This document shows positions 22,439 through 38,411 of a stretch of DNA of 64,000 nucleotides, piece by piece. Numbering within the stretch: the stretch's first letter is position 1; each line of letters starts with the position of its first letter. Origin of the DNA: Chondrosia reniformis. Lineage: Eukaryota > Porifera > Demospongiae > Chondrillida > Chondrillidae. The DNA lies in assembly GCA_947172415.1 (NCBI GenBank), contig OX359194.1, positions 8,518,401-8,582,400 of the forward strand, in the 5' to 3' direction. A program made the translations under genes and the position numbers. Under the pieces are notes generated by a model. It did not search any database and had not been told where the DNA came from. It was given only the letters and a program-made list of their open reading frames with translations.

Positions 22439-25400
22439 ATGCTCTCTCAAGTATTGCTGATAGCTGCTGTGCTGGTAGTGTCCACAAATAATGCCCTAAC
22501 TGAAGGAGGAAAGCAGTGAGTTGTACACACATCTACATATATAGTATTGTTTAATCCTTAAATGGTTGCATTGGTGTAAGGAGCTCCTATTCATCCACAA
22601 TCAGCAATACTATGTATTTTAAAGATAAAGAAGTTTATTTTTAGTTATTACAATGAGATCCTGATAGAGCTGTCCCACCTGAAACTTTGTACCATACTAC
22701 ATTTGTAGGCTATTATATATGTATGTACAATTTGCTCATTTTAGATCTGTTTTTACAGTGTATGCTATTATCGTGCCTCTTACCAGCAAAGTGTAACTAG
22801 AAGTAGAAGTGTGTCTTATCAAACCTGCACTAGATCTTGGTTGAACCGGACATGTACAACTAGGTATGTTACATATATACATACACATGTATACACATAT
22901 ACAGTTATCAGATTGTTACTTGTATTACTATCACTTTAAGCAACATTTAGTCATCTAAAACATGTATTTTTGGATGTTTCTTATATGTTTTATATAAACT
23001 TAGTATATGTTGTAATTGATATAACAAGCCCCATGCACCTATAAGCCAGGTTAGGAGACTAGAATGAATATATTCTTAGTTTACATATAAATTGCCAGTT
23101 CTCTTCCCAGCCATTGCTCCATTCATGTCTGATTATGTATCATTCAATTACTTGTATTCAAACAGGTACCGGACAGGATATTATACAGCATATGAAACTA
23201 GGTACAGAAGGGCTCTTCGTTGCTGTTCAGGATACACTGAAGTTTCAATGGAGTGTATCAGTAAGTGTAATTATATTGAAGCATAATGTGTACTTTCACT
23301 AGCAACTCCTTTCTACCTGTACTGTACAGAACGCTGCCTACCACCATGTGTCAGAGGATGGTGCAACCACGATACTGGAGTGTGTCAGTGCCCCAGTGGA
23401 TGGACTGGATCTACTTGTAGATCTGGTATGAGATATATACATATAGCTGACTGGATCTACTTGTAGTTCTGGTATGAGATATATATTCATATAGCTGACT
23501 GGCCTCATAGGATACCATGACGATGGTATTTGGCCAAATACAGTAGTTTGTCATATCCTGAATCAAATTTATATGCAGACATATATGATCATTGGTATGT
23601 GTATTAGTGAACTACGTATATGTACTTAATAACCAAGGACACATAATGTGACACTATTTTGATTTTGTGGGTTATCACTGTTAGGTTTCCAAAACATCTT
23701 TTAATTACATTATATTGCTCATAACAACATTACCTTGTTGTTAATCAGCTCACACCATTGCATTATGAATTTGTAATGTTTCTCAAATTAGCTTTTTACA
23801 TAGTGTATATGGTCCACAACCAATTTGTAATAATGTGCACACACCAATCATCATTTAGTTATACATTACACACCAATCCAGTAACAGTTTCTTTCTTTTC
23901 TAGTAAATATGAGGCAATTATTCCTAAATCTTTGTTAATCATCACTTCAAAACTCCTCTCTATGTACTGTACATCTACTTATCTACTGTTTGTGCGTCTG
24001 CCTCTTGTTTTGTGTAGTGATTGATTGTAGTTGTAGTAGTAAATATAGATAGATAGATTGAGTCCCAAACTGTTGTTATTGAGATAGGTTAGAGCACTTC
24101 TGTCTAATTATATAATTTGATTTAGATGAACATTTTCTATGCTTGTTGTTGCAGAAATTAATAAGTGTTTAGATGACAATGGAGGATGTCAGTACACGTG
24201 TATTAACACACGTGGTTCATACCATTGTAGTTGTCCATTTGGTTATCAATTAGACTCAGATGGAAAAAATTGCAGTGGTAGGTTAAGATTGACTAGCTAG
24301 GTGGTGAGTGTACGAGGTAGGGAATGTACTAAAATATAGTATATATAGTGCAGTGCAGTATAGCGTAATTGAAAATTTACTTACCACCAATTTGACATAT
24401 ATAATATAATTCAAAAAGATACTTTCCTATTAATTAGTCATATTAATGACTGAGACTTTTTAACAACCACTAAATGTGATGTACCTATAGAACTACATAC
24501 TTAAAGTTTAGACTCATACACATACGTACATACATGAGTTATAACTTGTACACAAAGCCTTGGAATGATTTGGTCCTACTATACTAGTATAAGACTTGGA
24601 CCATTTGTTATTTAAGCTTGACTGTAAATATCATATATATCGATCTGAACACTTTATAGCTTGCACTGAGTAGTACTTGAATGGAAATAGTTGTATTAAT
24701 TTATACGTAGTTTTGTATTACAATCTTACTCTATAGTTGTTCAATTAACAATCAACACCTTAACAGTTGGAAGGACTGATGATCCAACTTCTACTGTCAC
24801 TATAACACCTACCCTCAGTCAACCTGTATGGTTAGAATGTCGAAGGACTACTCATGCATTTAAGGATTGGTTCACTGGTGATCCTAGGAGCCGAGTTTCA
24901 GCAACTCCAGGAGATATTTTTACTAAATCAGGAAACTATAGGACACTATATATCTCATCATTCAATCCATGTCATGCTACAACATACAGCTGTATAGTGG
25001 ATCATTATAGCAATATGTCTACAGTATATCCAGTTGTCTTAGGTATGTACATACATGTATATATATGTTCAGCTTAAACCAATCACCTTGATCAAGTCCC
25101 GAAAATTCACGTTATACATTGTATACATTTAAACCGATCACCCGTCTAATGTGCAATACGGTCACTTTTTGGAGTCCAAAGAGGTTTCTTACCTTTGTAT
25201 CTGGCCGCACTCACCATTTAAAACATGCATTACAGGTCTAATAACGAATTAATATTAACATCTGACAAATAAATAGTCTACAATTGCAAGTTATTTAGAG
25301 CTCCGAGTTTGTATATGCATGTAACTATTCCTACAGCTGAAACAATACACACACATTACTTCAAGTCCAGGACCTCGGTTTGCTCAAAAACAATTATTCA

Positions 25401-37400: not shown

Positions 37401-38411
37401 TCACCTTTAGGACCTAATCTTTCCACTTTAGTAAGATGATCAGGTTTTAAGTATATAATAGAGATTGTGTTATTTAAGGACTTGATTGAAGTACATGTAA
37501 TTGTTAAATCAAGTGACTGTCCTAAAGATGACTGTACATACATATTTATATATGTAGTTATGTATATATTTCATATACACTGTATACGCAGTCAGTTTAG
37601 ATGATATATACATACGTATATTTCATATTTTATGTATATACAGGATGTTATAGTATCACTCAGTGTGTTTATACGAACTAGATCTGATAAACATTTTGTT
37701 TTAGCAAGTTTCTCAGAGTTAAGGTATGAATAAATTATTAATATTTGGAATGTCTCAAATGTGCATACACAAGCATACACACAGAATTGGGGCCTGGCTG
37801 AGTACATATTGAAAACATCTTAAATGTCCTGGAAATTGGGCACTCCTGTCCTTCCCATACAATTAATATTTTTACTTATCCCTATGTACTGTATAGTATT
37901 CAACCATCTTGTGAACTGAGCCCCTGTTTTGGGATTGATGTAAGTACAGTTTACAAGTTATATACAGTACATATACAGTACATATACAGTACATATACAG
38001 TACATATACAGTACATATACAGTATTTTATATATATAATGTTAATTATCAAATAGATAAATCTGCTTATTCCAGTGATTAATCCTCTCATAAAAGCCTTG
38101 GTTCTACCTGAACTGAACAGTAAGTGCAAGCTAACACATACACCACAATAGTATATTAAAATTAGTGACTATGTATATGCTATATGAATACCATTATAGA
38201 ATATGGTGCTGAAGGTATTCCCATTCCTGAATTTGATCATATCGATCTCATCCATCCCATGATTCATCTCAAAACTGTGAGTGATATTTGTCTCTTTATT
38301 TTTACTGTCTTCAATATCTGTAATGTCTACATACTGTATGTAATGTATGTATATATACTTTGTCTATAGGGTTATGGCATTGGTTGCTTTGACTTGAATT
38401 ATAACCCGTGA
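31470..38411 (+). CDS. Secreted EMI-EGF-cbEGF-Ig-FN3-BPI/LBP protein, copy B
   Basis: Twenty-one exons: 31470-31543, 31801-31905, 32311-32405, 32475-32570, 33578-33700, 34121-34423, 34943-35269, 35502-35576, 35636-35723, 35798-35923, 36001-36159, 36251-36314, 36475-36538, 36634-36725, 36863-37081, 37189-37341, 37644-37723, 37897-37939, 38056-38119, 38200-38276, 38370-38411. They close on 2469 nt (822 residues). Same order as copy A: signal peptide, EMI 25-91, EGF 92-123, cbEGF 124-164 with canonical DVNEC and [12 protein letters not shown], Ig 165-265, FN3 266-374, BPI/LBP 375-822. It lacks the 28-residue hybrid segment of copy A. EMI has SSWWGR where A has RSWLNR; EGF1 has CPCGW where A has CPSGW; BPI exon 37189-37341 appears identical to A. 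Stop is 494 bp from the convergent MDN1 stop. B looks closer to the ancestral form because its cbEGF motif is intact. Confidence 0.88.
33017..33246. repeat. 47-bp repeat expanded in gene B intron
   Basis: About five 47-bp units (core TTATACATTACATACCCATC) lie in the intron before the cbEGF exon. The same place in unit A (about 23855-23890) has one unit, so the array grew after the duplication. Confidence 0.85.

Follow-up and report, generated by a model that had tools for sequence, protein, structure and literature searches.

Two tandem genes of the sponge Chondrosia reniformis with a predicted fusion of extracellular modules to a BPI/LBP-type double barrel

BPI/LBP proteins usually consist of a signal peptide followed by a double barrel. 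A locus in the genome of the sponge Chondrosia reniformis raises the question of whether this fold can also sit at the end of a much longer extracellular protein and, if so, whether such a protein would still capture lipopolysaccharide (LPS). The locus lies within a stretch of 64,000 nucleotides (C6:8518401-8582400), hereafter the window, in a genome sequence of 117,379,552 bases and 15 contigs. Two neighboring genes, gene 1 and gene 2, encode the same order of modules: a signal peptide, an EMI-like domain, an EGF domain, a calcium-binding EGF (cbEGF)-type domain, an Ig-like domain, an FN3 domain, and both halves of a BPI/LBP domain. Judged from the sequence, the predicted fusion to the double barrel holds up and is beyond chance. 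We refer to the modules preceding the BPI part as the header. The published assembly of this species is described as 117.37 Mb in 14 chromosomes plus the mitochondrial genome, and RNA-seq from the same specimen is reported as well (PMC12181767).

Gene models and domain content

Both gene models were spliced by hand from the genome sequence alone. Gene 1 (22439-29600) and gene 2 (31470-38411) lie on the plus strand, contain 21 exons each, and encode proteins of 817 and 819 residues that are 90.4% identical. On contig C6 they span 8540839-8548000 and 8549870-8556811. In both genes, all introns are GT-AG, no internal stop is present, and the frames are continuous. A previous interpretation of this DNA, made from the letters alone (the sequence-only reading), had placed two in-phase genes at the same coordinates, and the rebuilt models agree with it. 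Its FN3-BPI junctions (26472/26706 and 35269/35502) were reproduced exactly, while its protein lengths of 848 and 822 residues proved near to, and slightly above, the rebuilt ones. An optional in-frame mini-exon (25566-25649; 84 nt, GT-AG) lengthens gene 1 to 845 residues, and we keep the form containing it as an optional variant of the predicted model. This mini-exon was created by an internal tandem duplication of ∼590 bp in gene 1 (24983-25572/25590-26161 by self-BLAST), whose repeated segment includes the 3' end of the Ig exon together with some of the intron that follows. The features of the two genes are as follows.

21359-30316 and 30440-39114, +, ∼9-kb tandem duplication (self-BLAST pieces 85-94% identical)
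22439..22515, +, gene 1 exon 1, signal peptide (ATG, hydrophobic core, donor GTGAGT)
22759-22863 and 23166-23260, +, gene 1 exons 2-3, EMI-like domain (PF07546 E 0.0058, below cut-off)
23330..23425, +, gene 1 exon 4, EGF, phase 1-1 (EGF_2 7e-6 on isolated piece)
24155..24277, +, gene 1 exon 5, cbEGF-type, phase 1-1 (FXa_inhibition 6.6e-12; EGF_CA below cut-off)
24737..25042, +, gene 1 exon 6, Ig-like, phase 1-1 (Ig_3 0.0022, below cut-off; C, W, and YxC landmarks by reading)
25566..25649, +, gene 1 optional mini-exon (in-frame, GT-AG)
26164..26472, +, gene 1 exon 7, FN3, phase 1-1 (PF00041 1.1e-5, above cut-off)
26473..26705, +, gene 1 FN3-BPI junction intron, 233 nt
26706..27741, +, gene 1 exons 8-13, BPI start and most of the N-terminal barrel (PF01273 8.6e-11; LBP alignment)
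27835..29600, +, gene 1 exons 14-21, rest of BPI, linker, C-terminal barrel, stop TGA (PF02886 2.3e-6)
31470..31543, +, gene 2 exon 1, signal peptide
31801-31905 and 32311-32405, +, gene 2 exons 2-3, EMI-like domain (PF07546 0.0096, below cut-off)
32475..32570, +, gene 2 exon 4, EGF (counterpart of gene 1 exon 4)
33578..33700, +, gene 2 exon 5, cbEGF, D-x-N-E motif by reading (EGF_CA 7.8e-8, above cut-off)
34121..34423, +, gene 2 exon 6, Ig-like (ig 0.00079, 20.1 bits versus cut-off 21.8)
34952..35269, +, gene 2 exon 7, FN3 (PF00041 3.1e-7)
35270..35501, +, gene 2 FN3-BPI junction intron, 232 nt (one AATAAA at 35439)
35502..38411, +, gene 2 exons 8-21, BPI/LBP double barrel (PF01273 1.4e-9, PF02886 1.7e-7)

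Both genes sit inside the ∼9-kb tandem duplication. No further copy was found at an E value of 5 when the gene 1 protein was searched by tblastn against the rest of the window and its flanks of 6.4 kb and 7.6 kb. Because Ensembl and BRAKER3 annotations of the C. reniformis genome exist (PMC12181767), the fused genes may already be listed there without comment.

Whole proteins were scanned with Pfam against curated cut-offs, and some modules were also scanned as isolated pieces. Values are given as gene 1/gene 2. Both halves of the BPI/LBP domain exceeded their cut-offs in both proteins: LBP_BPI_CETP (PF01273) at 8.6e-11/1.4e-9 (42.3/38.3 bits, cut-off 28.8) and LBP_BPI_CETP_C (PF02886) at 2.3e-6/1.7e-7 (27.7/31.4 bits, cut-off 23). 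The assignment of the C-terminal region to BPI/LBP by the sequence-only reading thus passes a hidden Markov model check. The solved LBP structure aligns with residues 11-425 of the 447-residue BPI part of gene 1 (7.7e-15), and solved BPI matches the BPI part at 6.4e-7. Also above their cut-offs were fn3 (1.1e-5/3.1e-7), FXa_inhibition (6.6e-12/1.6e-12), and cEGF (2.3e-7/1.6e-7). EGF_CA exceeded its cut-off in gene 2 only (7.8e-8; 2.3e-4 in gene 1), and by reading, the calcium motif of the cbEGF is kept in gene 2 (D-x-N-E) and degenerate in gene 1 (E-x-N-K). The first EGF, scanned as an isolated piece from gene 1 only, matched EGF_2 above cut-off (7e-6). Among the best 60 of 143 solved-structure matches, the gene 1 header matched EGF-type structures (best 8.6e-12), and none of these 60 matches started in the EMI part, before residue 58.

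A simple hydropathy scan, covering the six highest windows per protein, showed no separate membrane anchor. The hydropathy peaks outside the signal peptide fall inside FN3 or BPI, and BPI reaches the C-terminus; this pattern points to a fused protein that is probably secreted. The fusion, the module order, and the secreted nature proposed earlier are supported, with EMI and Ig below their Pfam cut-offs.

One polypeptide or two transcripts

The distribution of start codons bears directly on whether each gene makes one protein. In-frame methionines occur at residues 1, 89, 259, and 799 of gene 1 and only at residues 1 and 801 of gene 2. The BPI part starts at residue 371/372, with no in-frame methionine before 799 or 801, respectively. 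Traced 5' from the first BPI exon, the frame runs into a stop at 26657 (gene 1) and 35453 (gene 2), and no in-frame ATG lies between this stop and the exon in either gene. Because the BPI part has no start codon, a BPI protein made on its own would require a further exon, not seen here, to supply the start and the signal peptide. One polypeptide is therefore favored over two in these predicted genes, and we reject a BPI gene that stands alone with no additional exons.

Several observations weigh against a single polypeptide of the composition described above. The EMI matches, obtained on isolated pieces, are below the Pfam cut-off (0.0058/0.0096; 17.8/17.1 bits versus 25), as are the best Ig models on isolated pieces (0.0022/0.00079). 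For the Ig-FN3 part, the solved-structure search gave nothing significant (best 0.056). At the FN3-BPI junction, the donor (GAG/GTAGCC, exon/intron) is the weakest of the 40 in the two genes, scoring 4.0, whereas the other 38 range from 6.9 to 11.4; the acceptor is also weak (4.2; only two score lower). Reading through this donor leads to a stop at 26552 in gene 1 and 35349 in gene 2. An AATAAA is present at 35439 within the FN3-BPI intron of gene 2, with none in the gene 1 counterpart, and none follows the BPI stop of either gene in scans to 31000 and 39500. A single ATTAAA occurs 3' of the BPI stops, at 30835, over 1.2 kb past gene 1. The overall ratio of nonsynonymous to synonymous divergence (dN/dS) between the copies is 1.09, a value that does not indicate purifying selection on the entire protein. 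Finally, the full module order was not found in a second species by protein-collection searches, each of which scored only 7990-7996 word-sharing candidates; these searches returned three proteins overall and say little on absence.

We accept the EMI domain on two grounds: in each copy the match comes close to full length, and a protein from the sponge Geodia barretti (P0002) has a header that independently gives EMI, as the only family listed (0.015, 16.5 bits). The Ig domain is accepted because the C...W...YxC landmarks are present by reading and Pfam gives weak matches. A fold model of the Ig exon was uninformative, with a mean predicted local distance difference test (pLDDT) score of 34 from a two-row alignment. 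The nearby stop, taken with the junction signals, makes possible a short isoform ending before BPI, which the AATAAA at 35439 could serve. The same signals would suit an arrangement in which read-through of exon 7 yields a secreted EMI-EGF-Ig-FN3 protein and BPI is encoded by a separate gene: the weakest donor lies at the junction with a stop shortly 3' of it, and intron 7 of gene 2 holds an AATAAA, with none found after the BPI stops. Such an arrangement has no in-frame methionine before residues 799/801 and no ATG after the upstream stop, and it needs an unseen start and signal exon, whereas a conventional BPI gene on contig C8 of this genome has its own in exon 1. We regard it as very unlikely.

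Proposed origin and lipid binding, and divergence of the copies

The conventional gene belongs to a tandem pair of conventional-looking BPI loci (C8:5677000-5686500, minus strand), one of which, C8b, was fully modeled and the other partly read. C8b (C8:5677688-5680240, minus strand) has 15 exons and encodes 477 residues, with the signal peptide directly before BPI. It matches the C-terminal Pfam model at 1.5e-38 (133.1 bits) and the N-terminal model at 5.5e-21 (75.4 bits). The fused BPI domain shares 23% identity with C8b (E 5e-27). Every intron of the fused BPI domain (13/13) pairs with a C8b intron of equal phase (C8b has 14), and of the internal exons that pair one to one, 8/11 are identical in length, with the rest off by multiples of three; both models are hand-built, some C8b exon ends were picked with the fused exons in view, and the exon-intron structure of the family is judged against this single modeled BPI gene of the same genome.

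Phase 1-1 exons encode the EGF, cbEGF, Ig, and FN3 modules, one each, and the acceptor of the first BPI exon is in phase 1. Phase-1 exon shuffling leaves such a pattern, which suggests that the fusion may have originated in this way. The header appears to be older than the fusion, or shared, because P0002 of G. barretti has it without a BPI match. In the genome, searches for the BPI family turned up C8 alone, without either fused gene, and are thus no census. An EMI family search of the genome and a search with the Geodia EMI piece returned nothing; because an intron interrupts this domain and the fused genes were missed here too, these outcomes are uninformative.

LPS capture by BPI and LBP works through positive charge. 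The net charge of the N-terminal barrel (N-barrel) is -6 in gene 1 and 0 in gene 2, compared with +13 in C8b, +15 in BPI (1ewf), and +5 in LBP (4m4d). The corresponding isoelectric points are 4.5/6.4 for the fused proteins, 10.0 for C8b, 9.9 for BPI, and 9.1 for LBP. Cuts of 190 residues gave -7/-1 versus +13 in C8b, and the segment aligned with the barrel tip carries -4/-2 versus +3 in C8b. Both fused proteins (2/2) also lack a pair of N-barrel cysteines, which we take to be the conserved disulphide Cys135-Cys175 of BPI. C8b keeps Cys 142 and Cys 181, and the pair is present, by reading, in solved BPI, solved LBP, and P0001. We treat this pair as common to the BPI/LBP/CETP superfamily rather than as defining it. 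Taken together, the acidic or neutral N-barrel and the lost cysteine pair argue against charge-based LPS capture, and they lead us to reject membership in the LPS-binding BPI/LBP subgroup. These features lead us to favor barrels that bind neutral or zwitterionic lipids, or else a structural function. The earlier proposal of a lipid-recognition protein stands insofar as the superfamily binds lipids, while the positive charge for LPS binding is not there.

The two copies differ unevenly along their length. Exon lengths are equal in 16/21 cases, and the 5/21 that differ do so by a multiple of three; among intron length gaps, only 11/40 are multiples of three. For the BPI part, dN/dS is 0.52 (bootstrap 0.22-1.07), and for the N-terminal modules it is 1.55 (0.85-3.38). 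The Ig module shows 28 nonsynonymous and 5 synonymous changes, with a dN/dS of 1.87 (bootstrap 0.76-7.55, which includes 1). Nonsynonymous divergence exceeds that of the neighboring introns in the Ig module (28/229 sites versus 50/944 in introns 5-6; one-sided Fisher p 0.0003), a module picked after the counts had been seen, in one gene pair for which gene conversion is not excluded. It likewise exceeds intron divergence across the N-terminal modules (56/788 versus 109/2267 in introns 1-6; p 0.010) and falls below it in BPI (19/1025 versus 49/1515 in introns 8-20; one-sided p 0.022). These counts are hints of a diversifying Ig and a constrained BPI.

With a confidence slightly above even, we read the locus as two recent tandem copies, each encoding one secreted header-BPI polypeptide of shuffled origin that would bind lipids other than LPS. 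Phase-1 exons of a sponge adhesion or matrix header would have been placed 5' of a BPI gene, replacing the signal-peptide-bearing part of the first BPI exon. The header would assemble the protein and anchor it in the collagenous mesohyl. The barrels would hold neutral or zwitterionic lipids of host, dietary, or bacterial origin in apolar pockets, in the manner of CETP and PLTP, and LPS would not be gripped via positive charge. The Ig domain, as the fast-changing module, may set the partner. The body of C. reniformis is described as dense and collagenous (PMC7459819), a plausible place for an EMI-EGF protein. We infer lipid binding, assembly, and matrix linkage for the fused protein, possibly a multimeric lipid-binding matrix protein. 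A bolder version, which we hold only tentatively and consider somewhat doubtful, sees sponge-born, secreted, multimeric, matrix-held carriers with a charge-reversed BPI domain that move or store non-LPS lipids, with the diversifying Ig choosing the partner.

The sequence-only reading had pictured a receptor for bacterial or symbiont lipids, with BPI as the binder of LPS or related lipids and a header that clusters the protein or ties it to cells. Membership in the BPI/LBP family (Pfam and solved LBP) is consistent with such a receptor, as is an Ig domain that changes fast between the copies, beyond local intron divergence. According to PMC12181767, the sequenced specimen has bacteria of the kind expected in a high-microbial-abundance sponge, and BPI in two other sponges has been discussed as immune (PMC4772301). 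Against it stand the N-barrel charge of -6/0, the tip charge of -4/-2 versus +3 in C8b, the missing cysteine pair, and the conventional basic BPI on C8, which would be the natural LPS binder. Recognition of bacterial lipids in the BPI/LBP manner is therefore not supported, and we judge the receptor unlikely.

The lost cysteine pair and the acidic or neutral N-barrel would also fit a matrix glycoprotein in which the BPI fold survives for structural or protein-binding purposes only, with no lipid bound. The Pfam scores, which are weaker than those of C8b (42.3 and 27.7 bits in gene 1 versus 75.4 and 133.1 bits), point the same way. Nonsynonymous divergence in BPI, however, is under that of the neighboring introns, and both halves match their models, so that we consider a lipid-free fold distinctly improbable. 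Decaying duplicates or an assembly artefact would be compatible with a dN/dS near 1 overall and with a k-mer completeness of 69% for the primary assembly (PMC12181767), which suggests to us a heterozygous specimen. Yet the modeled coding sequences of both copies are free of stops and frameshifts despite frame-breaking intron indels, the whole 64-kb window contains no N, and the copies adjoin in one contig; we give decay or artefact hardly any weight.

On our preferred reading of secreted, non-LPS lipid binders, the locus brings together matrix and lipid-binding modules recombined in a non-bilaterian animal. The presence of a fused copy beside a conventional basic BPI gene allows a direct comparison of a fold freed from LPS binding. 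If lipids are indeed held in the matrix, these proteins would point to a route of extracellular lipid handling in a circulation-free animal.

Neighboring genes and known systems

The remainder of the window holds several other genes or gene fragments.

5854-6399, minus strand, HOOK coiled-coil exon (PF05622 7.4e-23)
7694-8657, array in which a 39-bp unit recurs ∼25 times; several frames are open (39 is divisible by three)
12134-16353, +, Cid1-family poly(A) polymerase-like exons (PAP_assoc 2e-8 at 16066-16353; a second PAP_assoc match at 12134-12475, 0.00063, is below cut-off, and two genes are possible)
39934-61810, minus strand, many exon-like open reading frames, by reading probably midasin (MDN1)
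62219-63031, +, TYW2/TRM5-type tRNA-modifying enzyme (PF02475 1.9e-22, TYW2_N_2 1.1e-13; Taw2 below cut-off)

Of three pieces scanned from the midasin-like set, one matched an AAA ATPase model (54952-55278; 3.9e-7), and the VWA-like piece at 39934-40236 had no Pfam match.

The proteins returned by the protein queries were an FN3-repeat protein and the Geodia header protein, both retrieved with full-length gene 1, and one unnamed JGI protein, retrieved with the gene 1 BPI part; the BPI region of gene 2 had no match. No report of this module order was found in the literature searched (titles and abstract starts, with few subscription journals). We take AQ in PMC4772301 to mean Amphimedon. On that assumption, BPI is reported in Amphimedon and Stylissa and not in Xestospongia (PMC4772301). 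A BPI-like protein has also been listed from the skeleton of red coral (PMC7853314).

We class the fused genes as a new architecture in a known superfamily. The possibly undescribed class suggested by the sequence-only reading would be new in its module order; the superfamily is known, and the header is not unique, since G. barretti has it. Like BPI/LBP proteins, the fused proteins have both Pfam halves, an NPG-like start, an inter-barrel linker, and a near full-length alignment to LBP. Unlike them, they carry ∼370 residues of N-terminal modules, so that the signal peptide is not beside BPI, and they have an acidic or neutral N-barrel without the cysteine pair. C8b resembles the fused BPI domain in intron phase (13/13 counterparts) and at 23% identity over the domain; it differs in consisting of signal peptide and BPI only, in its N-barrel charge of +13, in keeping Cys 142/181, and in having one extra intron. 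MEGF10/Draper-type EMI-EGF receptors, which are transmembrane phagocytic receptors, similarly have EMI followed directly by EGF, but they possess a membrane anchor, and the simple hydropathy scan showed none that was separate in the fused proteins. For the header, the likeness lies with G. barretti P0002 (database name Receptor-type tyrosine-protein phosphatase F, 933 residues), which has the signal peptide, EMI-like, EGF, and cbEGF modules and shares 44% identity with gene 1 in the header alignment. In contrast to the fused proteins, P0002 has an additional EGF by reading and seven or more FN3 stretches, and it matches neither Ig nor BPI.

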